Source of the DNA: Phormidesmis priestleyi ULC007
GTDB lineage: Bacteria; Cyanobacteriota; Cyanobacteriia; Leptolyngbyales; Leptolyngbyaceae
Direction: 5' to 3'
Assembly: GCF_001895925.1 (NCBI RefSeq)
Contig: NZ_MPPI01000005.1
Coordinates: 1-64,000 of the forward strand
DNA: 64,000 nt
Notes under the pieces: generated by a model
Seen by the model: only the letters and a program-made list of their open reading frames with translations
What the model was told of the DNA's origin: nothing
The model's database searches: none
Position numbers and translations under genes: made by a program
Shown: positions 25,089-38,997 of the stretch, piece after piece
Position numbering within the stretch: position 1 is the first letter of the stretch
How the letters are laid out: each line of letters opens with the position of its first letter

Positions 25089-25120
25089 GATCGCTGATCC
25101 GGTGACACTTTAGGATTATC

Positions 25121-25162
25121 TTACTCTGTAGTGAAATCTACTCAATAAAAGCTACAGAGTAA
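25121..25162. terminator. Perfect 11-bp hairpin at the transposase stop
   Basis: TTACTCTGTAG (25121-25131) and CTACAGAGTAA (25152-25162) are exact inverted copies with a 20-base loop. The right arm encodes the last residues and stop of the transposase. It could terminate transcription toward dxr or mark an element end; no T-run follows. Confidence 0.45.
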
Positions 25163-26336
25163 TGAGGTCATGAAACAACATCGTGATCATTCTACGAATG
25201 ACTCGCATCGATCGCTGATCACCCTTTCCAGGGTCAAGATGTTTAAGTTCACCTTTGACGATCGCATCTGTTCCATTTTCGTAGTAGTGCCTGAGTTTTT
25301 GAATGGTAGGTAGCTCTAGATTTGGATCAATGATGATGGCCATCGTGCACCATCGCCACAATGCTCGACGGATATCGCTTCTTCCGCCTGCTTTTTCTCC
25401 TTGAGTTCCGCCTGATTGGTATTGCACCATGCCGACTCCTAGAGCCAGTTTGAAGCTGGCTAGGGAGCGATATCGTTTACTACCTTCAATGCGCTCAATA
25501 ATGGGTTTTCCATCCGCTCCTAAAAATTGGCTGATGGGATAAATTACCCCTAAAAGTGCGGCGCTCGTGCGATCGCCGATTGCGTAACGGTCGAAGACTT
25601 GCAAATAAGGCTGAAACTCGTCTCTCTCCATCTCTTGCGCGATTTCTTGCTCAATCAGAAACTCTCGCTCTTCAACCAGAATTAGCTGGTGAGCAAGTCC
25701 TTGGCTAAAGCTGCTAATTCCCGTTCCGATCGAGGTCGATAAGATTTTTTCCCATTTTGCGGATGGATTGCCGATCATGGCTCTTAAGACTCCTGGTGGA
25801 TTCTGAGTCAGCCAGTTGCGATTGATCTGTTTTTGAGCAATTTCGGGGCACTCGTGGGCAAGCTGGAGACGCAATCGAGCCACGATCGGATTACGAATCC
25901 GCGTCAGGCTTTCCAATTGGTGAACTAGATCTCGCAAGCGGCTCGAAACGCCTCGAATAAAGAACTGTGGACGATTCCACCGCTCTAATCCGTAGCAGGC
26001 AAGCGCGATCGCGTCGAGGCGATCTGACTTGTTAAAGACTTTCCACGATTCTCGATAATTGGCAATTTCCCGATGCCCCACCCAGCGCACTTCTCGACCC
26101 GCTTGAATCAGATGATGGGCCCAGATTTTGGAGTAGTGCGCGCCTGTTGGCTCCATCAGTGCCCCATCAAACGGTAGGGCAAGTAACTGAGTAATGCCTT
26201 CACGATCGGCGGCAAACTCTAACTTTTTAAATCCCTGCTTGAACCGTTTTAAATCGGGCGGAATTTCCGATAGAATGCACACTGAAATTGAGGATCGACT
26301 GATGTCAATCCCGGCGACGGTGATATTGGTTCCCAT
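25152..26336 (-). CDS. IS110-family (DEDD) transposase
   Basis: 394-residue recombinase. The N-terminal RuvC-like DEDD domain shows AGIDISRSSISV (first Asp), ALMEPTGAHYSKIW (Glu), and KSDRLDAIALACYG (paired Asp). A helical region follows, then a C-terminal Transposase_20-type domain with QYQSGG (candidate Ser nucleophile) and GRSDIRRALWRW. IS110 enzymes work with a bridge RNA encoded in the element's non-coding end, and the 180 bases upstream of this start hold a strong fold candidate. The gene is full length and lacks visible frameshifts. No terminal inverted repeats are expected for this family, so the element's ends were not fixed. Confidence 0.82.
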   Translation of the reverse strand: MGTNITVAGIDISRSSISVCILSEIPPDLKRFKQGFKKLEFAADREGITQLLALPFDGALMEPTGAHYSKIWAHHLIQAGREVRWVGHREIANYRESWKVFNKSDRLDAIALACYGLERWNRPQFFIRGVSSRLRDLVHQLESLTRIRNPIVARLRLQLAHECPEIAQKQINRNWLTQNPPGVLRAMIGNPSAKWEKILSTSIGTGISSFSQGLAHQLILVEEREFLIEQEIAQEMERDEFQPYLQVFDRYAIGDRTSAALLGVIYPISQFLGADGKPIIERIEGSKRYRSLASFKLALGVGMVQYQSGGTQGEKAGGRSDIRRALWRWCTMAIIIDPNLELPTIQKLRHYYENGTDAIVKGELKHLDPGKGDQRSMRVIRRMITMLFHDLITL

Positions 26337-26416
26337 TAGTTGATCCTTAATCTCTGAAGACCCGCAAGTAAGGCATTACCGCGAGTCCATACTTCTGTTA
26401 AATCGGTTTGGGAGGG

Positions 26417-26514
26417 GCAATCTGGAAGACCTGTAAGATAATAAGTCCCCTTTTTCCAGAGACCCTTAATCTCTGAAGTCCGTAGACCCTTAAGGTTTTA
26501 AGTCCCCAGATTGC
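26417..26514 (-). ncRNA. Candidate IS110 bridge RNA or other structured RNA
   Basis: On the transposase strand, GCAATCTGG and CCAGATTGC (26506-26514 and 26417-26425 on plus) close a 98-nt multiloop. Inside are a hairpin CAGAGA-N7-TCTCTG (26457-26475), a small ACC-UUAA-GGU hairpin and a third GAC...GUC pairing. Variants of the segment GACTT...TTAAGGGTCT recur four times between 26345 and 26505. It lies about 80 nt before the transposase ATG, where IS110 elements encode the bridge RNA. The structure was folded by eye only. Confidence 0.5.
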
Positions 26515-26576
26515 GCGATCGGCTTTGGACACCTACCGCGACGGGTCATGCAGTCACAACCCGTTTCGTCTGTGTG

Positions 26577-26861
26577 TCAGGCAGACTCATCAGGCGTTGC
26601 TGGTCGATCGGGATTGACTTCGATTCGCGTTCCACCGTATCCACGGCATCTCTGGTGCTCGATCGCCTCGATGACCTCCTCCACTTGCGAGTCGCTCATC
26701 TCCTGAGTGTTCTGGTAAGCCAGGGTTGCAACTTGCCCCATCCAAAACTCAGGGGAGGAATCTGTTTGCTGACTGAGGGCAATCACGGCAAGCGTCGTCA
26801 TCCTCGTGTGGTAAACGAGTTCGCGCTTGACATTGATCGGTAGGGTTCTAAAGTCGATCAT
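26577..26861 (-). CDS. Small hypothetical protein D of overlapping accessory operon
   Basis: 94 residues, MIDFRTLPINVKRELVYHTR at the start, probably soluble and helical (VEEVIEAIEHQRC). Its ATG overlaps the upstream gene's stop by four bases (ATGA), so it is translationally coupled. It is last in a four-gene leftward operon from 27468. No family recognised. Confidence 0.55.
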   Translation of the reverse strand: MIDFRTLPINVKRELVYHTRMTTLAVIALSQQTDSSPEFWMGQVATLAYQNTQEMSDSQVEEVIEAIEHQRCRGYGGTRIEVNPDRPATPDESA

Positions 26862-27121
26862 GCTGACTCCTCTCGATAAATCGGTTCTCCATCAATCCAG
26901 CCGATCGGCACTTCAAGGCGGTTGCTAGGGGGAATGAGCGGCGGGTCATCTCCGTAAGCTTGCTCCAAGTCAGCAGCGATCGCTTTTAACCGGATCGCGA
27001 CCTCGATCGGGCGATCGAACTCTAGAATCCCTGCCAAAATGCCTCCAACTTCAGTCAAAACGTGGGCTTGCCATTCCGTCAGTCGGTAGCTCATATCAGT
27101 GTTGGTTAGTGGCTCTGCCAT
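26858..27121 (-). CDS. Small hypothetical protein C of overlapping accessory operon
   Basis: Start at 27121 gives an 87-residue protein (MAEPLTNTDMSYRLTEWQAH), acidic and helical in the middle, ending VPIGWIDGEPIYREESA. The open frame extends to 27241, but that part overlaps the previous gene fully. The chosen start overlaps the upstream gene by 26 bp. No family recognised. Confidence 0.5.
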   Translation of the reverse strand: MAEPLTNTDMSYRLTEWQAHVLTEVGGILAGILEFDRPIEVAIRLKAIAADLEQAYGDDPPLIPPSNRLEVPIGWIDGEPIYREESA

Positions 27122-27302
27122 CGTGTTGATGGGCGATGTTGCGCCCGATGTATTCGATATTAAAAGCGGCATTGGGATATCTGGCTGATAGCTGAGAAAT
27201 GCAAGCCATCGCCTCTCGGTGGCGGGCAAAATCACCCGCAACCGATTTAATCACGCCTCTAGAACCTGACCACCAGACACGCCATAAAGCATCACTACTC
27301 AT
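27096..27302 (-). CDS. Small hypothetical protein B of overlapping accessory operon
   Basis: 68 residues, MSSDALWRVWWSGSRGVIKS, with a helical middle (ARHREAMACISQLSARY) and NIEYIGRNIAHQH. The ATG lies within the last codons of the upstream gene and follows GGAGGAATGCGCC, a good ribosome site. This is the type of small protein seen in cyanobacterial plasmids and islands. Function unknown. Confidence 0.5.
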   Translation of the reverse strand: MSSDALWRVWWSGSRGVIKSVAGDFARHREAMACISQLSARYPNAAFNIEYIGRNIAHQHDGRATNQH

Positions 27303-27468
27303 GGCGCATTCCTCCGATCCAAATCATTTCAAATTGGGCGTTTACCGTGTGCTTTCTCAAATCTTTGAGGCATTTTTGAGCGTCGATCGTGAGAATAAAG
27401 CGATGTTTGAGCAGGTGACGGCATTCTGGGGTGATACAGAGAATCCCCCATCGGGGTTGAGTTTCCAT
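27295..27468 (-). CDS. Small hypothetical protein A, first gene of the overlapping operon
   Basis: 57 residues from an ATG at 27468 preceded by AAGGAGATTAAAC (ribosome site). It begins METQPRWGILCITPECRHLL and ends EMIWIGGMRHE, its last codons overlapping the next gene. Two Cys (ITPEC, QKC) are spaced too far apart for a simple zinc ribbon. The opposite strand is also open (27199-27474) but this frame has the better start and operon fit. Confidence 0.45.
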   Translation of the reverse strand: METQPRWGILCITPECRHLLKHRFILTIDAQKCLKDLRKHTVNAQFEMIWIGGMRHE

Positions 27469-27489
27469 GTTTAATCTCCTTAAGTGAAA

Positions 27490-27597
27490 GAGGAAAGGAC
27501 GATCGACGGCTCAAGGACAGTGAGTGGATCGATCGCCCAAACTTTGAGGAAAGGACGGTGCCTCCGCAGCATTAGTGAGTTCAACCGTCCAAACTTT
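27490..27597. repeat. Imperfect 56-bp direct repeat between small accessory genes
   Basis: GAGGAAAGGACG recurs at 27490 and 27546, and CCAAACTTT at 27537 and 27589, giving two units of about 55 bp. AGTGAGT is also shared. It separates the gene ending at 27597 from the operon starting at 27468 and may hold the operon promoter or operator. Confidence 0.6.
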
Positions 27598-27860
27598 TAG
27601 CCCGCTTTTGCCGCGTCTAGCCTTTCGTCTAGAAGGTCAAGGAGACTGAGGGCACGACCAAGGGGAAGGTGTTTGAAGAGTTCAAGAATCTGTTCTTCCA
27701 TCTCTTCTGGGGTCAAAGGCGGCATTGGTAACTCCTTAATCAAGACTTTTTGCCGTTCGGGGAGGAGCTGGCGGAAGAGGTCGGTAATCTGTTGTTCGGT
27801 GTTTTCTGGGTTCATAAGATGTTCGGGAATAAAGAGTGAATGCCAAGCATCAAAGCTCAT
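27597..27860 (-). CDS. Small hypothetical acidic helical protein
   Basis: 87 residues. A repeated pattern, TEQQITDLFRQLLPERQKVL then EEMEEQILELFKHLPLGRAL, indicates two related amphipathic helical units joined by a PMPPLTPE linker. The start may instead be Met16 (MNPENTEQQ). The gap 27861-28019 separates it from divergent genes at 28083, so a shared control region is likely. No function assigned. Confidence 0.5.
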   Translation of the reverse strand: MSFDAWHSLFIPEHLMNPENTEQQITDLFRQLLPERQKVLIKELPMPPLTPEEMEEQILELFKHLPLGRALSLLDLLDERLDAAKAG

Positions 27861-28082
27861 AGGTTTTCAGGAAGGGTTGACAGGCTTGAGTGGCACAATC
27901 CTGTACAGACGAGTCTGGTGTAATGGCGATTACGATCGCTTGTGATCCACTCCAAGACAATAAGATTGTACCCCTAATATAGGAAGAGTGCTACTATCAG
28001 GGGAACAATATAATTAAGGGTGTGGATCAAACACACTTCTTTCATTGCGGGTACAATAGGAGGAATACAATGTCTAAGACCA

Positions 28083-28271
28083 ATGCCAAAAGCCAAGCAC
28101 AATCAACACGGGGAACTGAAAAGCGCAGAACTGAAGGTACGGATAAGTCCGACAGCGAAGGAGGGGTTACAACGTCTAGCGAAGAATCTGAACCTGTCAG
28201 TGGGCGAATTTTTCGAGCGGCTGGGGCGGGGACAGTTGGAGGAATTATTGGGGGAATTGTTACCCGGATGA
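28083..28271 (+). CDS. Small RHH-like DNA-binding protein candidate
   Basis: 62 residues: MPKAKHNQHGELKSAELKVR, then ISPTAKEGLQRLAKNLNLSV and GEFFERLGRGQLEELLGELL. A basic N-terminal strand plus two helices fits the ribbon-helix-helix pattern of small plasmid or transposon regulators. The start is uncertain: the strong GGAGG at 28059-28063 serves an ATG at 28070 in another frame, and the ATG used here is about 19 bases from it. That other frame (28070-28447) reads through a Ser/Glu-rich shadow and is less protein-like in this stretch. Confidence 0.5.
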   Translation: MPKAKHNQHGELKSAELKVRISPTAKEGLQRLAKNLNLSVGEFFERLGRGQLEELLGELLPG

Positions 28272-28447
28272 TTCAAGAGAAGCAAGAACGCATCCGGGAA
28301 GCGAGAGAGTGTATTGAGTGGTATCAGCGAGAGGAAGCCAGACGGCTTGACGAACTTGCTGATTTACAGCAACTTGCCGAACAAATGCAGCCCGAAACGG
28401 AAGACTCTGAAGAAGGTTCTGAGGGCGATCGTGAAGTGGAGGCGTAA
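28268..28447 (+). CDS. Small coiled-coil protein coupled to the RHH-like gene
   Basis: 59 residues starting at an ATGA overlap with the previous stop: MIQEKQERIREARECIEWYQ, then REEARRLDELADLQQLAEQM and an acidic tail. It is a charged helical protein. The same frame is open back to 28070, so a 125-residue product is formally possible. A strong terminator follows at 28501. Confidence 0.45.
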   Translation: MIQEKQERIREARECIEWYQREEARRLDELADLQQLAEQMQPETEDSEEGSEGDREVEA

Positions 28448-28500
28448 AACGCTATAGCTTGAGTGGGAAAGCTAAACTTACGTCTCTTTAAAAACAACAA

Positions 28501-28530
28501 ACCCCGCACAGCTTAAATTATGTGCGGGGT
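28501..28530. terminator. Bidirectional rho-independent terminator
   Basis: ACCCCGCACA (28501-28510) and TGTGCGGGGT (28521-28530) form a perfect 10-bp stem with a 10-base loop, flanked by A-rich sequence on the left and T-rich on the right. It separates the converging genes ending at 28447 and 28558. Confidence 0.85.
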
Positions 28531-28557
28531 TTTCTATATTTAGCTTGGGCGATCGCG

Positions 28558-29007
28558 TTACTGCTGGCTTGCCTGAACGTGATATGAGTATGCCTCCATA
28601 CAAGTTGCTGGGAATTTCTCGAACCCTGACTCAACGTCGGACATAAGTTCCTGTAAGCCTTCCAGGTAGGTGACTTCCTGCTGCTGTTTTCTCTCGTGCT
28701 TAGTCAGTGCCCTCGAAATTCCCATTAGTTCAGTTCGCGGCTCTATGCACTTTGCCTCAAGCTGGTTCAGCAATTCAGCATAGGGTCTAACCACTTCTGG
28801 CTGCTTAGAGTCTTTACCATCCAGACTCGCTAAAGCCACTTCTGGCAGTAATCCTGATTGTTCAAAGCTTGCAACGGCTTTGTCTAGCTTAGTTCTCGAC
28901 TGTTGATAGCGAATTCCTACCAAAACAAAATTGATGCAGGTCATGACGATAATGGCGATCACCATTTTGCCCATCAGCCCTTCTAGTCGTTGTCTAAAGT
29001 TGTTCAT
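28558..29007 (-). CDS. Hypothetical single-pass membrane protein
   Basis: Start at 29007 gives 149 residues: MNNFRQRLEGLMGKM, then one transmembrane helix (VIAIIVMTCINFVLVGI), then a charged helical domain (SRTKLDKAVASFEQS, ALTKHERKQQQEV). The frame is open to 29046. No family recognised; the layout (short cytoplasmic tail, one helix, coiled-coil body) is common for accessory membrane proteins. Confidence 0.5.
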   Translation of the reverse strand: MNNFRQRLEGLMGKMVIAIIVMTCINFVLVGIRYQQSRTKLDKAVASFEQSGLLPEVALASLDGKDSKQPEVVRPYAELLNQLEAKCIEPRTELMGISRALTKHERKQQQEVTYLEGLQELMSDVESGFEKFPATCMEAYSYHVQASQQ

Positions 29008-29073
29008 GGTCAGTTCAATTAACGTCTCTTGCTTCAGCGTTCCCAACGCTCAACCGCTCAGAGCAAATTGGCT

Positions 29074-29529
29074 ATGAATCACTGCACTCACCCCCGCGCG
29101 ATCGCAGGTCTCGACGGCACCTGGTGCCCCGATTGCCATCAAACATTTCCTTCAGTGCCCTCACTCCATCAGCAATTCAAGAATTCCGCCTCGCAACAAG
29201 TCCGTAAACTACAAGCTTGTAAATCCATTCCGTCAGTACCCTTAGAAACTCGTGACGAGATGATCCCATCAATTCCGTCAGTCTTCCCAGAGGGTAAGGT
29301 GTGGATGAAAACGCGCCCCTACCGATCGCGCGGTGCCCTCTACTACAAATTTGCCTGGGGCATCGGCAGCGCGATCAAGCAAAACATTCACATTCCCGGC
29401 GGCTGCACCGATAGCCCGATTTCGACAGCCCGACGGGAAATGGTCGATCACTGGATTGAGTTGGGGCATTCACCCGGTCAGATTGTGGGGGCGATCGGCA
29501 AGTGGAGACGCAAACCGACCCTGAACTAG
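29074..29529 (+). CDS. Zinc-ribbon protein with a C-terminal IPGG domain
   Basis: 151 residues from the ATG at 29074. The N-terminus MNHCTHPRAIAGLDGTWCPD plus CHQTF places Cys4, Cys18 and Cys21 like a zinc ribbon with His6 or His22. After a Ser/Pro linker, residues about 84-148 (LYYKFAWGIG, NIHIPGGCTDSP, REMVDHWIELGHSPGQIVGA, IGKWRRK) share a pattern with the next gene. The domain ends in a likely helix-turn-helix (GHSPGQIVGAIGKW). DNA binding is inferred. Confidence 0.55.
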   Translation: MNHCTHPRAIAGLDGTWCPDCHQTFPSVPSLHQQFKNSASQQVRKLQACKSIPSVPLETRDEMIPSIPSVFPEGKVWMKTRPYRSRGALYYKFAWGIGSAIKQNIHIPGGCTDSPISTARREMVDHWIELGHSPGQIVGAIGKWRRKPTLN

Positions 29530-29551
29530 TACACTTGACACCCTCAGAAAA

Positions 29552-29591
29552 CTTTCACATCCTAAAAAGATATAAAAAATCGCTGTGAAAG
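29552..29591. promoter_or_regulatory. Inverted repeat just before the second IPGG gene
   Basis: CTTTCACA (29552-29559) and TGTGAAAG (29584-29591) are perfect inverted copies ending 3 bases before the ATG at 29595, with an AT-rich centre (AAAAAGATATAAAAAAT). It may be an operator or a hairpin masking translation start. Confidence 0.4.
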
Positions 29592-29594
29592 ACC

Positions 29595-29924
29595 ATGAAC
29601 TACCAACAACTCTCACTCATCGAAAGCGCCGAAACCCCTACTACGCCGTTGCTTACGGAGCGTCCCCCGCGTTCCGTTAACGATTTAGCTTCCGGCTTCA
29701 CCCACAAGATCTATGAGGTTCCATCGCGTGGGCACCGCTATTATCGCTATGTGGTCAATAGTGGTCACGAAGTCATTCAATCCCTGTCCATTCCCGGCGG
29801 CAACACGACCAACAAAATCGCTCAAAAACGAGCTAAGTTAGTGCAGGAATACCTCGATCGCGGGGTTTGTCCCAGCGACATTATCAACCTGATTGGGAGC
29901 TGGCAACTAAGAGACAAGCGCTAG
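29595..29924 (+). CDS. Second IPGG-domain protein, paralogue of the upstream gene
   Basis: 109 residues without the zinc ribbon. The C-terminal half (HRYYRYVVNSGHEVI, QSLSIPGGNTTNKIAQKRAK, LVQEYLDRGVCPSDIINLIG, SW) aligns with that of the preceding protein: aromatic strand, IPGG turn, basic helix and G..P..I...IG.W ending. It overlaps the recombinase stop by four bases, converging. Possible roles include a recombination directionality factor or element regulator (inference from position). Confidence 0.55.
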   Translation: MNYQQLSLIESAETPTTPLLTERPPRSVNDLASGFTHKIYEVPSRGHRYYRYVVNSGHEVIQSLSIPGGNTTNKIAQKRAKLVQEYLDRGVCPSDIINLIGSWQLRDKR

Positions 29925-30472
29925 AGCATGGCCGCGATCGCCGCCACTTCCGAGTCACTCACCTCGATATACCGTTGCAGGTTGCCTAAACTGGCATGAC
30001 CTGAGAGGGCTTGAATTTGTCGGATTCCTGCCCCCGATCGTGAAAGCGTCGTCAAACTCCCTCGCCGGGTGGAATAAGTCGAAAATCCTCGCAGCCCTAA
30101 TTTCTCAAACACCCGGCGCAATCCCTTGTCGTAGGCAGAAAAGGTGAGATGCCCTGCTCGACCGGGAAACAAATAGCCCTCCGATGGAGCGGAATAGGCT
30201 TTCAGTTCTTGTCTGAGCGCCGTTGCGATCGGCACCTCACGCGTTTTCTTATCCTTGCGAGTCCGTGCCGCGATCACCATTTTCTCTAGGGGCACCCGTG
30301 CAGATCCATACACGTCACTCACCTGCAATTGCAAAATTGCCGAGGGTCGTTCGGTCGTGTACCAACACAGGGCAAAAATCAACCGATGTGAATCATTTTT
30401 GATTTCACCCAACACTTTCTGAAACATCTCTTTTGTGAGTGCTTCCGCTTGACCACACCGATTAATTTTCAT
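29921..30472 (-). CDS. Minimal tyrosine recombinase/integrase
   Basis: 183 residues forming only the catalytic domain of a phage-type integrase. The first Arg is in WYTTERPSAILQLQVSDV, a Lys likely lies in RTRKDKKTREVPI, the HxxR box reads YSTRRGSLTT (Tyr replaces His), the second His is in LSGHASLGNL and the nucleophile Tyr is in LQRYIEVSD. It lacks the N-terminal core-binding domain of typical integrases (about 300 aa), yet no upstream frame continues it. Direct repeats lie just upstream (30474-30645). Confidence 0.82.
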   Translation of the reverse strand: MKINRCGQAEALTKEMFQKVLGEIKNDSHRLIFALCWYTTERPSAILQLQVSDVYGSARVPLEKMVIAARTRKDKKTREVPIATALRQELKAYSAPSEGYLFPGRAGHLTFSAYDKGLRRVFEKLGLRGFSTYSTRRGSLTTLSRSGAGIRQIQALSGHASLGNLQRYIEVSDSEVAAIAAML

Positions 30473-30473
30473 A

Positions 30474-30645
30474 TCTCACTTTTGTTCTAGGAAGCGGCGA
30501 ATCTAGGAACTACCCTTGCTTGCAGCATTCCCACTTTCTCCGCGTCCTTATCTCCGTAAGATTCCTAGACTTTCACTCGTGTCTCACTTTTGTCTAGAAG
30601 TGGGATATTTTTAGTGAAGTCGTTCGTGTTACCACTTTTGTTAAT
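30474..30645. repeat. CACTTTTGT direct repeats next to the recombinase
   Basis: TCTCACTTTTGTTCTAG (30474-30490), TCTCACTTTTGTCTAG (30582-30597) and ACCACTTTTGTTAAT (30631-30645) are related direct repeats. TCTAGGAA also occurs twice and once inverted (TTCCTAG). They resemble recombinase arm-type sites or iterated operators in the divergent region between the recombinase and the virion-like operon. Confidence 0.5.
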
Positions 30646-30683
30646 CAGGGAATTACTGAAGGAGTGAACTTAGGTAATTTTTT

Positions 30684-30989
30684 ATGACTGCCATCACTAT
30701 CGCTACTGACATTCCTAGCTCGATCGTCACCCTTGAACAGCTCCACGCCTGGAGTGGACTGACTCTCGATCGCATTAATCCCTCTCTCGCCGTCCTAGAA
30801 GCTGAAAACCTCGCCCAATTCGTGATGCAAACAGGCATTTTTTCGGCTGCGGACAATTCTAATCGATTGCTGGTTCGCTCCTCGTTTGCGATCGATCCCG
30901 ACTTCATCAGCAATCGCACAAAAAAACTATGGATGTTCACAAAAGAATTTTCTGGTGTGTCCATTCCCCAAGCGTTTAAAGAGAACTAA
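30684..30989 (+). CDS. Small protein, first gene of the virion-like operon
   Basis: 101 residues: MTAITIATDIPSSIVTLEQL, then HAWSGLTLDRINPSLAVLEA. It is mixed helix and strand without membrane segments. It overlaps the next start in a TAATG arrangement. Function unknown; possibly a small structural or connector protein. Confidence 0.5.
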   Translation: MTAITIATDIPSSIVTLEQLHAWSGLTLDRINPSLAVLEAENLAQFVMQTGIFSAADNSNRLLVRSSFAIDPDFISNRTKKLWMFTKEFSGVSIPQAFKEN

Positions 30990-33736
30990 TGGCAAGCCCT
31001 AGCGATTTTGATCAACTAGCGGCGCGGGCGAAGTTTCAGAAAATCTACGATTTCAAGCCAGCCGCACAGCAAAGTGATGGCTATTTTCGCCCCAAATATC
31101 CACCGCCACCGCCTAAAGTCGCACCCAAGGAAATTAACGATAGTTGGATGCGTGCCGAGCGGCGGATTGATCAGGGCTTCAACACCCCGCGACCGCTTCA
31201 GAATAATCCCAACGTCGATCGCTCTCTAGTGCCGGGGCAGAAAATCTCACCGGGCGGTGGCGGTGCCAATCCAACCGCACCGCGAACGCCAAACTTCTTA
31301 GAGCGGGGACTCAACCGACTGACTGGGGAGAGTCCAGGCGCGCAGGTGGGGAACCGTAACCCCATCACCGCGAACCCGATTACCGGACCCCTCTCCGATC
31401 GTGTGGCCAGGAGTTTAAAGGGCCTCGCTAATCCCGTTTCTTATATACCGGGATTGGTCGGGGGGCAAGCATCCGATCAAATTAATCAATATGACGAGCG
31501 GCTGCGGCAAGATGTGCAACAACTGCTAGAAAAAGCTGGGGTGCCGCGTGCAATAGCGGATGCGGCCTCTAGACTTTACGACACGGGCAATAAACTTCAG
31601 AATGGGGGCGAGTATACGCCGGGAGGTCAAGCCACCAATCCAACCCTGGTTAACAAAGCGCTTGACCTTGCCAAGCAATTTGCTGGCCAATCAGGAATCC
31701 TCGGGCCATTAAACCAAAGCATTAAAGATAGCGGCATTCCTGACTGGCTTAACCCCTTCAAGGACACCTCAAAAAATGGGGAGAGAACTAATTACCCAAA
31801 CCCCAGCGACAAGCCCAGCGCTGAATCTAAAGCGTGGTTTCCCAATGCAACAAAAATCAGGGTTTGGTCTCCCAACAACAGGCGGTACGTAACTTACGGA
31901 ATGCTGTCTTACAGCATCACAGCACTCCCTAAATACAATCAGGGCACGTCACAAAACCCGAAAATGTCAGCTAGAAGTGGCAACTTCACCTATCTCCGAG
32001 AGGGGACTGACGATTATATAATCCAGTTCTCTTTTTGGACGTATGCCGATTCTTTCGCGACCTTCAAGGTAGCGCAAGGAAGTTTTAACTGTGAACCCTG
32101 GACGCTTGAAAACCTCGGACTCGACCCAACCGTAAAGGACCCCAACCCAGAATCACCCGAAAATATTGTTCCAGAAACCAATCAGCCGTTTTTTCCCCCG
32201 CTCCCTAAATATCTAGATGACATAGCGCAACCTTATCCACCAACGATTCTTGACCCAAACGACTTCCGGCATCCCGGTAAACCACCAACACCGCCCACGC
32301 TGCCGTCTTGGCCATCTTTGCCACAACTAGATCCACCGCCATTCGACCCCCTCAAGGAAGAAAAAAAAGAGCAAGAAGCGAACCCTGTAGCGCCGATCTT
32401 CCCTTCATTCAACCCTACAGACACACCCAGACTGCCCATTCCTCAAGACCCTATTCCGACTCCTCCCACCTTTCAGCCGATTCCACCCACGAACGATCCA
32501 ACGCCTCAGAACCCTAACCAACGGCTGAACGATCGGGGCATTTTCCCGGCAACTAAAGCGACGATCACACCGACCGTCTCAGGTAGCCCGTTGTCACCCG
32601 ATGTTGAAATCGGCGGTGACCCCGTTCGCCTGAAGCCGATTAACCCTAAAACCAAACCGATCCCTACCACTGACCCAGACCCAACAGAACAGAAGAAAAA
32701 GGATGACGAGAGAACCCTTCCTTTCCCTCTACTCCCCCCCATCTTTCCACGACCGACCGGGCCCACTGGCACGATCGACCCGCAAACGGCTGACGATATC
32801 ACCAAGAGCAAGAATCCGCCGCCTCCACCTGTGGGCACTAAGCCCAAATGTCAGGACGGCTGTATGGCTGGGCTAGAAACCGGACAGCAATCAATCTTAG
32901 ACAAGCTGAATGGCAACGGCTTAAACGTTGGGCTGAATGCGGCTGAGTTAGGATTGCTGACCACTATTAACAACAAAATGGGTGATCAGTTGACGGGCGG
33001 TCTATCTGGAAAGTTAACCCGGCTGAGTTCATGGCTGCATCTCGATCGAGCACTTAATTTAATGACTTATGCCAACACTCTGCACAATGCTTACTTCTTG
33101 AGTTCTGGATTGACACAAACATTGTTCAGCATGATCAGCAATGTACTTGCAGTTGTTGGCATTAAAGACGCTGAAAACAATCCTCTAGATATTGGCTCCG
33201 TACTCGGAAAGGCAGCAGATGCTTACGCTAAAACTGTGCTAGGAGTAACAACAGTAGACGGAATCAAAGCGGAATGGAAAAAGTACAGCAGAATCTACGC
33301 GGCGGCGGCTAGTCTTTTATGGTCAATGCAATCAATCGGACAATCAATCTTAGGTGCCTTGGAAGTTGTTGGTTCAATGGTTGCGAAAATCGGAAACGCG
33401 CTTAGAAAGTTCGGTGCAATCGGTGAAAAAGCATTCGGCTGGATGAATGACACGCCTAACTATCAAAACAGATTCTTTACAGCATTAGAGAAGACAGAAG
33501 AGGTTGTTAGTCAAATAGATCAAGTAGCAAGTGAAGCGCTATCAATCAAGGACACTGTTGATCAGATAGGAGTACAAAAGAAAGAGTTAGACGATGCGCT
33601 CAAACAAAATGAAGAGAGTAAACAGGGTAAGGAATTATCAGAAGCCGCAAAACTGAAGACTGACGAAACGAAAAAGAAAACAGATAGTCAACCGCCGATT
33701 GTCCCTCCTACAGCCGAGAAGAAGCCTGAGAACTAA
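30989..33736 (+). CDS. 915-residue Pro-rich protein with hydrophobic helical C-terminus
   Basis: Largest gene of the accessory operon. Residues 1-130 are Pro-rich (PPPPPKVAPKEINDSWMR) with a GGGGAN stretch. A folded part near 280-370 (KIRVWSPNNRRYVTYGMLSY, YIIQFSFWTYADSFATFKV) follows, then a long Pro/Asp linker to about 620. Residues 625-915 are helical with hydrophobic runs (SLLWSMQSIGQSILGALEVV) and a Lys/Glu-rich tail. The layout recalls phage tape-measure or other minor tail proteins but no family is recognised. Codon use becomes AT-richer in the last third. Confidence 0.6.
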   Translation: MASPSDFDQLAARAKFQKIYDFKPAAQQSDGYFRPKYPPPPPKVAPKEINDSWMRAERRIDQGFNTPRPLQNNPNVDRSLVPGQKISPGGGGANPTAPRTPNFLERGLNRLTGESPGAQVGNRNPITANPITGPLSDRVARSLKGLANPVSYIPGLVGGQASDQINQYDERLRQDVQQLLEKAGVPRAIADAASRLYDTGNKLQNGGEYTPGGQATNPTLVNKALDLAKQFAGQSGILGPLNQSIKDSGIPDWLNPFKDTSKNGERTNYPNPSDKPSAESKAWFPNATKIRVWSPNNRRYVTYGMLSYSITALPKYNQGTSQNPKMSARSGNFTYLREGTDDYIIQFSFWTYADSFATFKVAQGSFNCEPWTLENLGLDPTVKDPNPESPENIVPETNQPFFPPLPKYLDDIAQPYPPTILDPNDFRHPGKPPTPPTLPSWPSLPQLDPPPFDPLKEEKKEQEANPVAPIFPSFNPTDTPRLPIPQDPIPTPPTFQPIPPTNDPTPQNPNQRLNDRGIFPATKATITPTVSGSPLSPDVEIGGDPVRLKPINPKTKPIPTTDPDPTEQKKKDDERTLPFPLLPPIFPRPTGPTGTIDPQTADDITKSKNPPPPPVGTKPKCQDGCMAGLETGQQSILDKLNGNGLNVGLNAAELGLLTTINNKMGDQLTGGLSGKLTRLSSWLHLDRALNLMTYANTLHNAYFLSSGLTQTLFSMISNVLAVVGIKDAENNPLDIGSVLGKAADAYAKTVLGVTTVDGIKAEWKKYSRIYAAAASLLWSMQSIGQSILGALEVVGSMVAKIGNALRKFGAIGEKAFGWMNDTPNYQNRFFTALEKTEEVVSQIDQVASEALSIKDTVDQIGVQKKELDDALKQNEESKQGKELSEAAKLKTDETKKKTDSQPPIVPPTAEKKPEN

Positions 33737-33739
33737 CCT

Positions 33740-34570
33740 ATGCCACTACCCGTTGATTTCAGTTCTTGGGAACATTTACAGTCCACAATGATGCAGGTAC
33801 AAAACCGCATCGTTAGAGAAGAGTTTAATGATTTAGGCGATGAAAGTTGGGACGATGATATCACCCAACCTAGAGGTAGTCTGAGAGTCGCTTCTACGCT
33901 AAGAGATAATGACTCTGCGATCGAAACACTCAATAAACTGTTGTTCTTTTATGTTGTTCTTAGAAAAGCAGCAGACTTACAGGCTCCGATCTACGGTATT
34001 CCCGTCACCACTTTCCAAGATTCTGTTAAGTTCCTTCCTCAAGTGCGATTGTTCTTCTTGGAGGATTCAAGTCAAGTTGAAGAAGGTTACAGTCCGGTTG
34101 AGGCTGAGATCACATTCAGAGTGATGAATGAAACGAGCGAATCAATGACAGAAGCAAAGGCTAAAGTTACTGCTAATAAAATTAAAACTTTGTTCTGTGC
34201 GGGTAACGGTTTTGCCTGGAAAAAAGGACGCGAATTGTGGATGTATAAAGAGCCAGCTAAAGGCTACAATTTGCAGCTTTACGCGTGGAATGAAACAGAG
34301 GCGAAAAAAGTTATTGAACAGATTTTAGATGTTCAAAGCGACACTCCAAACTGGGAGAAACATTTAGAGGGCACGACGAAGAAAAAGACCTTCCGCACTA
34401 TCCCGGCTTCCAGTCGGATTTACGGAAAGGTCAGACGGGAGGCAAGAGAGCGCCCGATCGCCACAGTTCGGTTTCGCTATGCAGAGCTAAAAATACATGG
34501 ACTGCCCAACGATGTGCAGCTCGTCGATCGGACTGGCTTCCGCCACAACCCGTTAGTCAAGGCAAACTAG
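33740..34570 (+). CDS. Hypothetical protein, virion-like operon
   Basis: 276 residues, soluble, without signal peptide. Features: MPLPVDFSSWEHLQSTMMQV at the start, VRLFFLEDSSQVEEGYSPVE, a helical block rich in Lys (EAKAKVTANKIKTLFCAG) and a C-terminal beta part (RPIATVRFRYAELKIHGLP). It starts 3 bp after the preceding stop. The lysine-rich internal region is AT-rich compared with the rest. No family recognised. Confidence 0.55.
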   Translation: MPLPVDFSSWEHLQSTMMQVQNRIVREEFNDLGDESWDDDITQPRGSLRVASTLRDNDSAIETLNKLLFFYVVLRKAADLQAPIYGIPVTTFQDSVKFLPQVRLFFLEDSSQVEEGYSPVEAEITFRVMNETSESMTEAKAKVTANKIKTLFCAGNGFAWKKGRELWMYKEPAKGYNLQLYAWNETEAKKVIEQILDVQSDTPNWEKHLEGTTKKKTFRTIPASSRIYGKVRREARERPIATVRFRYAELKIHGLPNDVQLVDRTGFRHNPLVKAN

Positions 34571-34601
34571 TCGCTTTTCCCAAAATTGCCAAAAAGTGAC
34601 T

Positions 34602-34618
34602 GGAACCCTTAGGGTTCC
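34602..34618. terminator. Short hairpin in the only gap of the operon
   Basis: GGAACCCTTAGGGTTCC is a perfect short palindrome in the 132-bp gap 34571-34702. It is not followed by a T-run, so it may be a processing site, attenuator or protein site rather than a terminator. Nothing else is seen in the gap apart from ribosome-site sequence before 34703. Confidence 0.35.
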
Positions 34619-34702
34619 GGGTGCGAAAAATGATGCAAAACGCTTGCTGCGAGGGCATCACTAGAACTATCGAGCTAACTCATCCACAATCCTTTTATTT
34701 CT

Positions 34703-35245
34703 ATGAGCACCCGCAAGACGGTTTTACAATTACAACGGCAGCTAGACGAGGCGAAACGCCGCGCTGCTTACGTTGCCCCTCAGCGAGAAGAAGGCGCAGC
34801 TACTCAGCGACGCCCTAAGAGCGCCATCAAGTACGGTTGCACCTCCGCCCCTAGCACTGACTTTACAATTCAAGGCTCTAAAGCTGGCATCATCTTTTTT
34901 GGCGGTGAAGCGGCATTAGGACTGGCTGACGCAGGCTCTGATCCGACTGCACCCAAAGGCTTTCACCCGAATCGGATTTACGCAATGATTTCCGATGCTT
35001 CGCCTCAAGTCGTGAGAGCAAAAGCGAGTAATCGGGCCTACACTCGATACGCTCGTGGCACTCGTGGCAGCAATACCCAGAGCACGTTTTCGGCTCCGAT
35101 TAGCGACATAACGACTCCGACAATGGCATCGGTTCGCGCCAAGTTTGGCACCGTTGCCAACTCCAAGAAAGATGAAGTCGGCGGTTCTTACGGGCGCATC
35201 TGGTTCGAGCCGGAACGCCTCCCCCTAGTCGAAAGCGGTAACTAA
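34703..35245 (+). CDS. Hypothetical protein, virion-like operon
   Basis: 180 residues. It starts with a basic helix (STRKTVLQLQRQLDEAKRRA) and continues with a compact beta-rich part (FTIQGSKAGIIFFGGEAALG, YAMISDASPQVVRAKASNRA). Basic overall (many Arg). Its last base overlaps the next ATG (TAATG). Possibly a small structural protein; unrecognised. Confidence 0.55.
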   Translation: MSTRKTVLQLQRQLDEAKRRAAYVAPQREEGAATQRRPKSAIKYGCTSAPSTDFTIQGSKAGIIFFGGEAALGLADAGSDPTAPKGFHPNRIYAMISDASPQVVRAKASNRAYTRYARGTRGSNTQSTFSAPISDITTPTMASVRAKFGTVANSKKDEVGGSYGRIWFEPERLPLVESGN

Positions 35246-35472
35246 TGAAAGAACTGCTACTCGCAACGCCCGCGCTCTGGTATCCAGGGCAGAGTGAAAC
35301 GGAGTGGCAAGAAGAGGTTGATGCGATGGTCGAACGGACATACATTACAGCCGCGTTCATGCGGGGTGAAGTGTATGTCGATTCCTTTTTGGATTACCTC
35401 GCTGAGACCTATGCCGACCCGCTTGAAGTGGCTGATAGCTGGGATGAGGAGCTGTGCTTAATCTCAATCTAA
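35245..35472 (+). CDS. Small acidic hypothetical protein, virion-like operon
   Basis: 75 residues: MKELLLATPALWYPGQSETE, WQEEVDAMVERTYITAAFMR, then an acidic C-terminus (WDEELCLISI). It is coupled by overlap to both neighbours: TAATG upstream and 19 bp shared with the GTG-started gene downstream. Function unknown. Confidence 0.5.
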   Translation: MKELLLATPALWYPGQSETEWQEEVDAMVERTYITAAFMRGEVYVDSFLDYLAETYADPLEVADSWDEELCLISI

Positions 35473-35954
35473 GCAATGCTGGCTCCTGGCGGCTTGTCTA
35501 TTCCCAGTTGCACGTTGGTAATCCTGAAGCCCGTAAAACTCGGTCAGCGATGATCGACATTATTGAAATCCCCGTAACCATTCCCGGCAGGATTTTGGCA
35601 GTAGGGGCAAGCTACATCGCGGCTCCTCCCACTTGGCACGTTGCAGGCTACTTCTATCAAGAGGTAGGAGGGGTGGCTTTAGATGATGCGCTAGTTTTTC
35701 CGGGTGTAGGCGGCTCCCCCACGGCCGTACTCGATGCCTCGAAACGGCGCATTGTGCTCAACACGATCGAGATGCACGTCTTTACGCGCTTCGCCACAGA
35801 ACACCGCTATCGATTTGAAGCGATGCGATGGATTCCGCGCCTGACTTTGGTGGTGTGGGAATACATCGGAGCCGAAACAGACAGTACAGAAGACCTATTG
35901 CAAACCGTCCGTGTCGATTTGGCACGAGTCGAATTTAAGGTGAATCAATTATGA
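35454..35954 (+). CDS. Hypothetical beta-rich protein, virion-like operon
   Basis: 166 residues from a GTG inside the preceding gene; an ATG at 35550 is an alternative. Segments IEIPVTIPGRILAVGASYIA, TWHVAGYFYQEVGG and FEAMRWIPRLTLVVWEYIGA suggest a beta-sheet structural protein. It overlaps the next start as ATGA. No family recognised. Confidence 0.5.
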   Translation: MLNLNLSNAGSWRLVYSQLHVGNPEARKTRSAMIDIIEIPVTIPGRILAVGASYIAAPPTWHVAGYFYQEVGGVALDDALVFPGVGGSPTAVLDASKRRIVLNTIEMHVFTRFATEHRYRFEAMRWIPRLTLVVWEYIGAETDSTEDLLQTVRVDLARVEFKVNQL

Positions 35955-36301
35955 CGATGATGAATATTGCAGGTTTGAGTCAGAATTTGCCCGATGAAGC
36001 CATTACTTGGGCAGGGTTTGGCGAACCCGTGCGGTTAAATTTCACTTTGCTTTCAGGCGAGTCTTTAACGCCTGAATCGAGTGCACTGGAAGCGATGACT
36101 AAATTGCTGAACGGACTCTATCAGCAACAGATCGAACTGAATCAGGTTCGCGCACAGACTGGGTTAGCGCCGATCGCGGTTGTGACTCGGACGGTAGACA
36201 CCAATGCTGATGGCAACCCGATCGTGACTTTGGCGCTCTCGCTTGAAATTGATCTGAATGCCTCCCTGAATAATCTGATTGATCCCACAGATGAGGGCTA
36301 A
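35951..36301 (+). CDS. Hypothetical protein, virion-like operon
   Basis: 116 residues: LSQNLPDEAITWAGFGEPVR, a helix EAMTKLLNGLYQQQIELNQV and a final strand pair (GNPIVTLALSLEIDLNASLN). A short helical trimerisation-type segment in tail-fibre proteins can look like this, but the match is only by shape. It is tightly coupled to both neighbours. Confidence 0.5.
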   Translation: MTMMNIAGLSQNLPDEAITWAGFGEPVRLNFTLLSGESLTPESSALEAMTKLLNGLYQQQIELNQVRAQTGLAPIAVVTRTVDTNADGNPIVTLALSLEIDLNASLNNLIDPTDEG

Positions 36302-36303
36302 TC

Positions 36304-36612
36304 ATGCCACTTCACTCAGACCAGGCGGCGGCTTCTAGCGGGCAGCAGGTGACGGAGGTGTTGAAACGGGCGATCGCGACTTCAATCACGTCCAAACTCA
36401 TGGCACCTGCCAAAGAGAGGAAAGGACTAACGATTTTTAATCACAGCACGAGCGCTCTCTATATCGACTTCGGAGCTTCGGTTTCGCTGACTGATTTTGC
36501 CGTTCGCATTCCATCCGGCGGGTATTACGAGATGCCGTTCGTCGTCTCCACAGACGTACGGGGCATCTGGGAGCAAGGGCAAGGCAAAGCATTTATTAGG
36601 GAGATGATTTAA
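36304..36612 (+). CDS. Small virion-like beta protein, copy 1
   Basis: 102 residues with the pattern RKGLTIFNHSTSALYIDFGA, FAVRIPSGGYYEMPF and a final GIWEQGQGKAFIREM. The same pattern (RKG.TIYN.ST..LYI..G...F.V...GGYYE.P.....I.GIW....G.A.VTEL) occurs in the next gene and in phage and prophage small structural proteins as I recall them. Likely a virion decoration or fibre-associated protein. Confidence 0.6.
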   Translation: MPLHSDQAAASSGQQVTEVLKRAIATSITSKLMAPAKERKGLTIFNHSTSALYIDFGASVSLTDFAVRIPSGGYYEMPFVVSTDVRGIWEQGQGKAFIREMI

Positions 36613-36616
36613 TTTA

Positions 36617-36928
36617 ATGGCTCTTTTCAACCCCACGGCGATCGCGGCTCCATCAAGCAGCGCGGCGATCGGAACACCCACAACCGTTGCATCTGCAATT
36701 ACCAGCAATATTCTTCTAGCGACAAATGCAGCTAGAAAGGGATCGACTATCTATAACAGCAGTACTTCAAGGCTCTATATTTCCCTTGGCTCTGTCGCGA
36801 CGGCGGCGGCGTTTACAGTACTGCTAGAGGCGGGGGGCTACTATGAAGTACCCTTCTGGTTTACGGGCAACATTCATGGGATCTGGACAACGGCAAACGG
36901 CAACGCTTTGGTCACGGAGTTGACGTAA
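36617..36928 (+). CDS. Small virion-like beta protein, copy 2
   Basis: 103 residues, a clear paralogue of the preceding gene: ARKGSTIYNSSTSRLYISLG, FTVLLEAGGYYEVPFWFTGN and IHGIWTTANGNALVTELT. The two differ at most positions outside the motif, so the duplication is not recent. It overlaps the next start as TAATG. Confidence 0.62.
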   Translation: MALFNPTAIAAPSSSAAIGTPTTVASAITSNILLATNAARKGSTIYNSSTSRLYISLGSVATAAAFTVLLEAGGYYEVPFWFTGNIHGIWTTANGNALVTELT

Positions 36929-37137
36929 TGCCCGTTAGTAATCCGGCTCAGACATCGACGATTCCAAACTTGCAAGAATACATCGTGGATTCTGTAGCTC
37001 AAGCGCTGCAATCCTCGGACATCACCATCAATTACGATGACGCTGCCGGGGTGATTCAATTAGCGGCACCTCCGACCGTAGCGGGTGACTGGGACGCGAT
37101 CGATGCGACGGTATGGGATGCCCTACAGACCACGTAA
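36928..37137 (+). CDS. Small hypothetical protein preceding the fibre-like gene
   Basis: 69 residues, acidic: STIPNLQEYIVDSVAQALQS, then DITINYDDAAGVIQLAAPPT and a Trp-containing end (DWDAIDATVWDALQTT). The gap to the next start is 12 bp. It resembles a short structural peptide; no family recognised. Confidence 0.45.
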   Translation: MPVSNPAQTSTIPNLQEYIVDSVAQALQSSDITINYDDAAGVIQLAAPPTVAGDWDAIDATVWDALQTT

Positions 37138-37149
37138 AACGGAGATCTA

Positions 37150-38379
37150 ATGCCTGTCAATGTCGATAATATTGCCTCATTGAAATCGGTCGGTGCCAAT
37201 ACAAAGAAACTACGCTGGGTTGATTCTGAGCGATCGTGGTTTCAATCCGATCCAAGCGCTACGAACCCAGGCGATGATGTCAATATCGTTGCTCCCAACA
37301 CTGGATCGGGTCGATGGCTTAAGCAGTTCTCCGTCAACTCGAATAATCAAGGGCTGATCTGGCAGTCTGTCACCGCAGAAACCACCCTTTCTGCTAACTC
37401 TGGCTATTTTGTGGATTTATCTGCGAGTAGCGGGAACGTCGATCTCACTCTTCCCTCGTCACCCGTGGCGGGGCAAGTGATCAGCCTGATTTATATGGGT
37501 GCGACTTCTTTGCTTAAAAAGGCGATCGTGCGGCGCAATGGCAAACTGATTAGTTCAGGCGCGATCGACCTACAGATCTACACACAAAATCAACGCCTCA
37601 CCCTGACTTATGTCAGCGCTGCGGTGGGTTGGTTTCCAGAGAGTGCAAGACCTTTAGAGTTCTTTCAAGCCAGTGCTATTTTCACGCGCCCCGCGACTAC
37701 AACCGTTGCTCAAAATGGCATCCTCAACTATCTAGGCACCAACTTAAACACGGGCAGTTATTTAAATCCATTCGTGCTTAGCACCAACCCGCTTCGACCC
37801 AGACGCGCTATATTTTGCGCTCGATTGGCGTGGACTAATGTGGGGACAGCTATTTTGATGGCTGATAAAAGTACCACTGCTACTATTGCAAATCGAGCTG
37901 ATCCGGCGGCTGATTCTGCTAGTTTTTTCATTCTCTTCTACAACTCGGAAACCAAAGCACCCATTCAGATCAAGCTGAGTTCTCTCTATATTCAATTTGC
38001 GAGTACGGGGGGAGTCTACACCCCTAAAACTTTCAATATTCGAGGAGCCAAGAATTTAGGGGTAAACCTTGCTTTGTCGGATGTAGAGGCAAAAATTGCC
38101 TCTGCTCAGTCCCTTTTACCTCAGCAAGATTCCAGGATTCTGATTTCTCCTGAATGGGTCAGCCTAGCAACCTTTACGGATGCCAACAGTGGGCTTAGTG
38201 GCAACTATTACGGCAACTCAGGAGCCAACGCTACAGTGAGCAAATTTTACGATCTGAATGCGGCTGATTTTTATCCGGCTTATATGATCACCTCGCTGCC
38301 TTCAGTGGTGAATGGCACGGCATTCGAGGGGTGGGAGATCAGGCAGATGGAACTCTATGGGGAGGTGATCGCAGCATGA
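37150..38379 (+). CDS. Tail-fibre-like or receptor-binding-like protein
   Basis: 409 residues. The N-terminus (VDNIASLKSVGANTKKLRWV...WFQSDPSATNPGDDVNIVAP, TGSGRWLKQ) follows the common phage-fibre pattern of an IA.L...G repeat ending in a ..P..G.GRW motif. The body is beta-rich with Ser/Thr/Asn (SGNVDLTLPSSPVAGQVISL, FTRPATTTVAQNGILNYLGT). No signal peptide or membrane segment. Last codons overlap the next ATG. Position near the end of the operon also fits a fibre gene. Confidence 0.6.
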   Translation: MPVNVDNIASLKSVGANTKKLRWVDSERSWFQSDPSATNPGDDVNIVAPNTGSGRWLKQFSVNSNNQGLIWQSVTAETTLSANSGYFVDLSASSGNVDLTLPSSPVAGQVISLIYMGATSLLKKAIVRRNGKLISSGAIDLQIYTQNQRLTLTYVSAAVGWFPESARPLEFFQASAIFTRPATTTVAQNGILNYLGTNLNTGSYLNPFVLSTNPLRPRRAIFCARLAWTNVGTAILMADKSTTATIANRADPAADSASFFILFYNSETKAPIQIKLSSLYIQFASTGGVYTPKTFNIRGAKNLGVNLALSDVEAKIASAQSLLPQQDSRILISPEWVSLATFTDANSGLSGNYYGNSGANATVSKFYDLNAADFYPAYMITSLPSVVNGTAFEGWEIRQMELYGEVIAA

Positions 38380-38681
38380 ATCCCCAATTTGATACGAAAA
38401 CTCTCATCTCACTTGCTACTTTTCTGGCTGGTGCCGGATCGGCCGTATGGGGAATGGTGCGCTTCTATGCGGATGGCGAAAAGAAGCGCTATGCAGCAGA
38501 GCGAGATTTTACGCATCTGAGAAATAATCAGGATCAAATGAGGCAATCCATTCAGGAGCTGACAAAGGAAATCGACGAACTGAGCGACGACATGAAAACC
38601 CTCACAGCAGTGTTTAACGTTATGCTGGCTCAACGAGGGGAAAGTGTTTCGGGTATTTTGGGCTATAAAAAAAGAGATTGA
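38376..38681 (+). CDS. Holin-like/XhlA-like single-helix coiled-coil protein
   Basis: 101 residues from the ATG overlapping the previous stop (ATGA). A membrane helix near the N-terminus (LISLATFLAGAGSAVWGMVR) is followed by a charged coiled coil (HLRNNQDQMRQSIQELTKEI, DELSDDMKTLTAVFNVML). This order, small helix plus coiled coil after the fibre genes, resembles phage holin or haemolysin-XhlA-type genes. The role is inferred by layout. Confidence 0.5.
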   Translation: MNPQFDTKTLISLATFLAGAGSAVWGMVRFYADGEKKRYAAERDFTHLRNNQDQMRQSIQELTKEIDELSDDMKTLTAVFNVMLAQRGESVSGILGYKKRD

Positions 38682-38682
38682 G

Positions 38683-38880
38683 ATGAACCCAGTTCGGCGC
38701 ATTGATCCATGCGAAGTCGCGATCGTCCGCACGGCGATCCGCGAAACTCTCAGCAACCCAACCTTGATGAGCTATGACAGACGGGCGATCGTGTTAGCGC
38801 TCGAAGAGTTGCTGACTGATCTGAAGCAACGGCTGTCGAGCGAGAATTCCGATACATTTGTAGCAATGAAGAATTTGTGA
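38683..38880 (+). CDS. Small helical protein, last gene of the virion-like operon
   Basis: 65 residues from the ATG directly after the preceding stop: MNPVRRIDPCEVAIVRTAIR, ETLSNPTLMSYDRRAIVLAL and EELLTDLKQRLSSE. Helical and charged. A GTG at 38644 would lengthen it by 13 residues into the previous gene. A hairpin follows immediately, ending the operon. Confidence 0.5.
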   Translation: MNPVRRIDPCEVAIVRTAIRETLSNPTLMSYDRRAIVLALEELLTDLKQRLSSENSDTFVAMKNL

Positions 38881-38903
38881 GAGAGGGCGATCGCGCTCCT
38901 CTC
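38881..38903 (+). terminator. Hairpin after the virion-like operon
   Basis: GAGAGGGCG (38881-38889) pairs with CGCTCCTCTC (38894-38903) around a 4-base loop, with one bulge. It has no long T-run. It directly follows the last gene stop and probably ends the transcript. Confidence 0.45.
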
Positions 38904-38997
38904 CCGTGAAATCCTTCTATCTCCACTCAGAGAAATAAGCAACTTTACTAGAGATTAAGGTTTCGTGGCACTCTTAATACGCAGTTTTGCTAACCTT

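Follow-up and report, generated by a model that had tools for sequence, protein, structure and literature searches.

In a stretch of 64,000 nucleotides from the cyanobacterium Phormidesmis priestleyi ULC007 (contig NZ_MPPI01000005.1, positions 1 to 64,000; hereafter the window), the leader of an IS110-family recombinase gene is a bridge RNA, encoded on the minus strand and preceded by a hammerhead ribozyme motif. The predicted cleavage product begins exactly where the bridge RNA 5' stem-loop begins. We consider it probable, at roughly 78%, that the ribozyme cuts the bridge RNA, guide of the integrase of a 13.8 kb phage-like element, out of an operon transcript. A preliminary description of this DNA had placed a structured RNA, possibly a bridge RNA, upstream of an IS110 transposase at 26337-26520. 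The RNA is genuine and is encoded by the minus strand; that interval covers its loops and misses the 5' stem-loop (26539-26515) as well as the hammerhead (26599-26534), which is the most unusual feature of the locus. The locus is made up of the following parts.

25152 to 26336, minus strand: IS110-family DEDD recombinase, 394 aa (Pfam DEDD_Tnp_IS110, 2.8e-8; Transposase_20, 3.9e-5)
26342 to 26404, minus strand: donor-binding loop of the bridge RNA (fold)
26417 to 26514, minus strand: target-binding loop (folds; homologous structure with covariation)
26515 to 26539, minus strand: 5' stem-loop, loop GUCCAAA (fold of the predicted cleavage product; hairpin also in relatives)
26534 to 26599, minus strand: hammerhead ribozyme with open stem I, type I layout (covariance model, relatives)
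26593 to 26587 and 26567 to 26564, minus strand: ribozyme motifs CUGAUGA and GAAA
after C26540 and before G26539, minus strand: predicted cleavage
26577 to 26861, minus strand: upstream open reading frame of 94 aa (from the list of reading frames), its stop codon inside the ribozyme stem II loop

A fold begun at the predicted cleavage point gives, from the 5' end, a stem-loop followed by the target-binding and then the donor-binding loop. Every feature described beforehand was recovered: the 9-bp closing stem (GCAAUCUGG/CCAGAUUGC, 26514-26506 with 26425-26417), the hairpin with the TTAAGGG loop, which on the minus strand reads CAGAGA-UUAAGGG-UCUCUG, the smaller hairpins, and four units resembling GACTT..TTAAGGGTCT (approximately 26506-26485, 26482-26461, 26448-26427 and 26361-26341). 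These units are accounted for by the target and donor loops, whose stems and guide strands resemble one another; they do not form an array, and a TIGR-like reading was dropped for that reason. The apical hairpin of the target loop and the donor loop share the sequence CTTCAGAGATTAAGG (26482-26461 and 26361-26341). Compared with dinucleotide shuffles the minus strand folds at z -2.07 (z -2.31 when taken from the predicted ribozyme cut), and the plus strand, at z -0.40, does not fold better than its shuffles. Taken alone, the fold stands out only modestly; the strong support comes from the agreement of the loops with the actual insertion site, together with covariation in relatives. Across 12 relatives, 21 of the 47 predicted pairs have changed on both sides, and the guide strands of the first loop are hypervariable.

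The insertion site can be read from a genome of the same genus (G001), in which the flanks at 25120 and 38955 are contiguous (C6:87686/87687), that is, an empty site with the sequence ..GCCACGAAACCT-TAA-GATAATCC... Because this genome holds the site uninterrupted, the mobile element is the whole of 25121-38954 and not a compact insertion sequence.

25121 to 38954, no strand assigned: whole mobile element, approximately 13.8 kb, upstream of dxr
25121 to 25123: core TAA at the right junction, repeated at the left junction at 38955 to 38957

The left junction reads ..GAAACCTTAA|TCTCTAGTAAAG and the right junction ..CACTACAGAGTAA|GATAATCC. A few bases at the right end of the element could be older host sequence, because G008, a genome more distant than G001, has CAGAGTAAGATAATCC at the corresponding place; the insertion point is nevertheless fixed by G001 and the left junction. 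The host element is of 13.8 kb and phage-like, not a simple insertion sequence: a compact reading was rejected, since more than 1.5 kb of upstream sequence is common to the copies and an empty site was found. Homology breakpoints were likewise rejected as left ends, as mosaic sharing ends inside the elements and the ends predicted by the guides lie further out.

The guide strands within the two loops correspond to this site and to the ends of the element.

26490 to 26499, minus strand: left target guide AAAACCUUAA, 9/10 match to the target GAAACCT-TAA
26433 to 26442, minus strand: right target guide AUUAUCUUAC, reverse complement 9/10 against the core and right side of the target, (T)TAA-GATAAT
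26399 to 26389, minus strand: left donor guide AACAGAAGUAU, resembling the right end ACAGAG-TAA with one extra A
26358 to 26348, minus strand: right donor guide UUCAGAGAUUA, complementary to the left-end TAA-TCTCT, 8 nt exact
predicted target sequence of the recombinase with its bridge RNA: AAACCTTAAGATAAT

The two sides of the target loop, 10 nt each, match the G001 site GAAACCT-TAA-GATAAT at 18 of 20 positions (9/10 each against GAAACCTTAA and the reverse complement of TTAAGATAAT), and the chance of at least 18/20 at a fixed register is about 2e-9 by a binomial estimate at 0.25 per base. The 5' strand of the donor loop, ACAGAAGUA, fits ACAGAG-TAA solely with one extra base; the same kind of extra A is seen by eye in one relative (L003, AAGGAACTAT against AAGGACTAT), and the match of the donor guide to the right end is clear among relatives. 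Across the 24 relatives whose right end can be recognised, the target guide matches the right flank of its own element over a mean of 4.79 nt beyond the core, compared with 1.25 nt after permutation (none of 20,000 permutations as high, p<=5e-5); one contributing value, the 12 of L032, is inflated because the flank there is truncated to 5 nt. The corresponding donor guide match is 4.83 against 2.0, again with 0/20,000 permutations as high. In genome G284 the guides predicted the left end AGGGTGAATCACC, and two 40 kb regions each contain AGGGTGAATCCCC a single time, at the very point from which the two copies agree. The bridge RNA that had been suggested from the sequence is therefore supported by both covariation and complementarity of the loops to the junctions. 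That the repeats and hairpins are a chance structure devoid of guide function is wildly improbable: a folding energy only about 2 standard deviations below shuffles would suit it, and it is contradicted by the empty-site match, the permutation test, the guide-predicted left ends and the covariation.

Upstream of the bridge RNA the minus strand reads CGCCUGAUGAGUCUG..CAGACGAAACGGGU..ACCCGUC^GCGG, in which a CUGANGA, a GAAA and an NUH core are joined by three helices. A covariance model trained on 27 relatives, with the window sequence left out, finds this region as its sole match in the window (44.1 bits, E 5.2e-10); loops were trimmed to four bases before modelling, since aligning untrimmed hammerheads with MAFFT put stem II out of register. 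The hammerhead pattern was met in none of 100 shuffled windows, and none of 1740 shuffled regions parsed as a hammerhead. We collected 55 distinct hammerhead copies adjoining IS110 recombinase genes, 31 of them through recombinase searches and the rest through a pattern that demanded the core motif. Stems II and III covary in these copies, with as many as four kinds of Watson-Crick pair at a position; stem I is nearly invariant. Overall, 94% of cells are paired and the covariation score is 0.783, compared with 0.186 when shuffled. At the cleavage site every one of the 31 recombinase-found copies has C or A, with no G; these copies alone inform this point because the pattern demanded the core in the others. 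At the gathering score Rfam has no match in the window, its best model for the ribozyme being Hammerhead_3 with 20 bits against a threshold of 48.5, and none of the relatives (14 loci) reaches the threshold either.

The 5' stem-loop of the bridge RNA opens with the first nucleotide of the predicted product and re-pairs the 3' strand of ribozyme stem I (GCGG), whose bases form its foot, with GUCCAAA as the loop, in the window and in most relatives. In one locus (L026) this strand is GUGG, with CAC downstream and CCAC upstream, so that both alternative helices are kept. An upstream open reading frame of at least 70 codons ends no more than 60 nt from the ribozyme core in 39 of the 55 loci, nearly always at -13 to +14. 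The computations establish the guide RNA, the insertion site, the ribozyme motif, its association with IS110 and where the cut would fall relative to the 5' stem-loop; we infer transcription, self-cleavage and strand exchange, with a cut that serves the guide RNA rather than the mRNA. The bridge RNA would be transcribed on the minus strand within, or by read-through from, the upstream operon of small genes; the hammerhead overlapping the operon end would fold as the RNA emerges and cut between C26540 and G26539, whereupon the freed GCGGU would leave stem I and pair downstream, forming the 5' stem-loop. The mature bridge RNA would then bind the recombinase. Its target loop would pair with both chromosomal halves of AAACCT-TAA-GATAAT, its donor loop would pair with the element ends once these are joined, and the element would accordingly insert at that chromosomal site. 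In this scheme the IS110-type recombinase would act as the integrase of the 13.8 kb phage-like element.

Dozens of mobile elements of cyanobacteria carry the ribozyme together with the bridge RNA. Scanning GTDB genomes for the pattern returned at least 117 stretches (39 cyanobacterial, 78 other). Among the matches listed, 33 of the 39 cyanobacterial stretches have an IS110 recombinase downstream on the same strand within approximately 600 nt, and the remaining six comprise four that run off the end of the fetched DNA and two decayed or interrupted copies; none of the 78 others (0/78) has such a recombinase, and they resemble the prophage hammerheads described by Perreault et al. (PMC3088659). 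An unbiased model search of 194 cyanobacterial genomes gave 30 matches, 25 of them with a recombinase. At least eight near-identical copies of hammerhead and bridge RNA (L115, L119, L141, L145, L187, L193, L198 and L205), one interrupted inside the bridge RNA, are present in Arthrospira sp. PCC 9108, which makes it a good experimental model. Anabaena sp. UHCC 0187 is another cultured cyanobacterium with an element of this kind. On the recombinase tree the ribozyme is found across the clade with several losses. Ribozyme-less loci make up all 12 loci of host family f23 (L014, L019, L022, L028, L035, L040, L041, L043, L044, L050, L051 and L055) and both loci of host family f19 (L007 and L024). 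Ribozyme loss seems to follow the host and not the element, because all informative loci of the two families are ribozyme-less although their recombinases come from separate branches of the tree.

A number of observations weigh against release of the bridge RNA by self-cleavage or limit the support for it. In its favour, short 5' hairpins in which the predicted product pairs at least three of its first four bases are found in 48 of the 55 copies, but this figure is weak alone and suggestive only, because GCGG pairs easily (58% in the null). Core conservation is not independent evidence, because both the pattern and the parser demanded the core motif. Stem I of the window ribozyme is short, three Watson-Crick pairs followed by a mismatch, and the minimum-energy fold of the isolated 76-nt region is without a three-way junction. 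Furthermore, an interrupted hairpin takes the place of the ribozyme in 14 loci from two host families, and on this account the ribozyme is dispensable. The short stem I and this long hairpin, which could have a structural role, would accord with a hammerhead fold that has lost self-cleavage and persists as an uncut module, a 5' domain bound by the recombinase. We hold this to be improbable, as the stems vary freely while the core letters are kept, the cleavage-site base avoids G in the 31 recombinase-found copies, and known hammerheads with such cores cleave.

A further counterpoint comes from the same genome, where a weaker hammerhead-like match of 25.6 bits (L369, G000:C104:151218-151267, minus strand) lies ahead of a gene for a tyrosine integrase without a bridge RNA. 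Together with the frequency of bacterial hammerheads near prophage integrase genes (PMC3088659), it speaks for a real bridge RNA whose hammerhead neighbour serves the recombinase mRNA (its 5' end, stability or translation) or separates off the upstream operon, nearness to the bridge RNA being secondary. Such a role is rather unlikely, though less so than an uncut module: the cut keeps a fixed distance to the 5' stem-loop whereas the start codon lies anywhere between 95 and 354 nt away from it, and among the matches listed hammerheads precede IS110 genes solely in cyanobacteria, and there almost always. Release of the bridge RNA by the ribozyme stays the reading that we prefer.

The recombinase itself belongs to a family in which E62, D105, D108 and S308 are invariant and D11 nearly so, and whose profile matches the IS621 and ISCro4 structures. 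It is present as one copy in the host genome. A close-relative scan of GTDB contigs by the recombinase alone gave no relatives, whereas whole-genome searches gave some; none were found in phage records or, by peptide pattern, in IMG/VR, and two were found in plasmids. The motif AAGGA (26348-26344, minus strand) lies within the 3' strand of the donor loop ahead of the recombinase gene and is likely, judging by its sequence, to be the Shine-Dalgarno ribosome-binding site. RNA binding could therefore, by way of speculation, restrict translation of the recombinase in a feedback.

The element also carries a tyrosine recombinase and a block of phage-like genes.

29921 to 30472, minus strand: tyrosine recombinase (integrase; Pfam Phage_integrase, 3.2e-16; homologs in 10 related loci sets)
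30989 to 38681, plus strand: phage-like block encoding 915-aa, 276-aa, small, tail-fibre-like 409-aa and coiled-coil proteins

Two recombinases are thus aboard, the tyrosine recombinase and the IS110 recombinase. The 915-aa and 276-aa proteins are common to many IS110-hammerhead elements and have no PHROG or Pfam family, and 37150-38379 has weak matches to tail PHROGs. Two related copies in G284, approximately 19 kb each, also carry a tail-fibre protein. Among the proteins tested from the element and the G284 copies no capsid or terminase was recognised, and PADLOC reported no defence genes; the 30989-38681 block possibly represents a family of tail-only or satellite-like elements.

Bridge RNAs and hammerheads are each known, and their combination is apparently unreported. 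In IS621, a compact insertion sequence, joining of the ends creates the promoter from which the bridge RNA is transcribed (PMC11208160, PMC11208158). IS621 and the window element share an RNA upstream of the recombinase gene, the order of 5' stem-loop, target loop and donor loop, two guide strands per loop for the two target or donor halves, and a DEDD plus serine recombinase of the same superfamily. In contrast to IS621, the window element is 13.8 kb long, its left end lies 12 kb away, a hammerhead precedes the RNA, and its 394-aa recombinase is remote from the 328-aa enzyme. The seekRNA of IS1111/IS110 is likewise a non-coding RNA of the element that picks the target, but in IS1111 it lies at the other end, and text searches found no ribozyme in that system (PMC11187229). 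Prophage hammerheads, which lie near integration genes and are proposed to cut long phage transcripts (PMC3088659), have the same catalytic core and a similar CCGC/GCGG stem I; those listed are not tied to a guide RNA, whereas the predicted cut in the window coincides with the bridge RNA 5' end in an association specific to cyanobacterial IS110 elements. The sole precedent found for a hammerhead beside guide RNAs is the phage-related VIPR arrays (PMC13142463), which differ in being an unrelated protein/RNA system with arrays instead of a single bridge RNA and with no recombination. Apart from that preprint, our search, which left subscription papers and most preprints outside, found no report of a hammerhead with IS110 or of a hammerhead ribozyme with a bridge RNA.

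Bridge RNAs are the newest class of guides for programmable DNA rearrangement, and the formation of their ends is known for compact insertion sequences only. It is on balance likely that the self-cleaving ribozyme is ancestral to, and an integral component of, a large clade of RNA-guided recombinases, in which it releases the bridge RNA from an operon transcript while four bases switch from stem I to the 5' stem-loop. An IS110 recombinase could in this way serve as a programmable integrase for large phage-like elements, the ends of which lie too far apart for the junction-promoter arrangement of compact insertion sequences. A 5' end defined by a ribozyme would also be a way to make a guide from any transcript, usable in tools, and a concrete job would fall to some of the bacterial hammerheads associated with phages, a group lacking a clear function since 2011. 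For comparative work the family offers dozens of pairs of guide and target as well as natural losses of the ribozyme.
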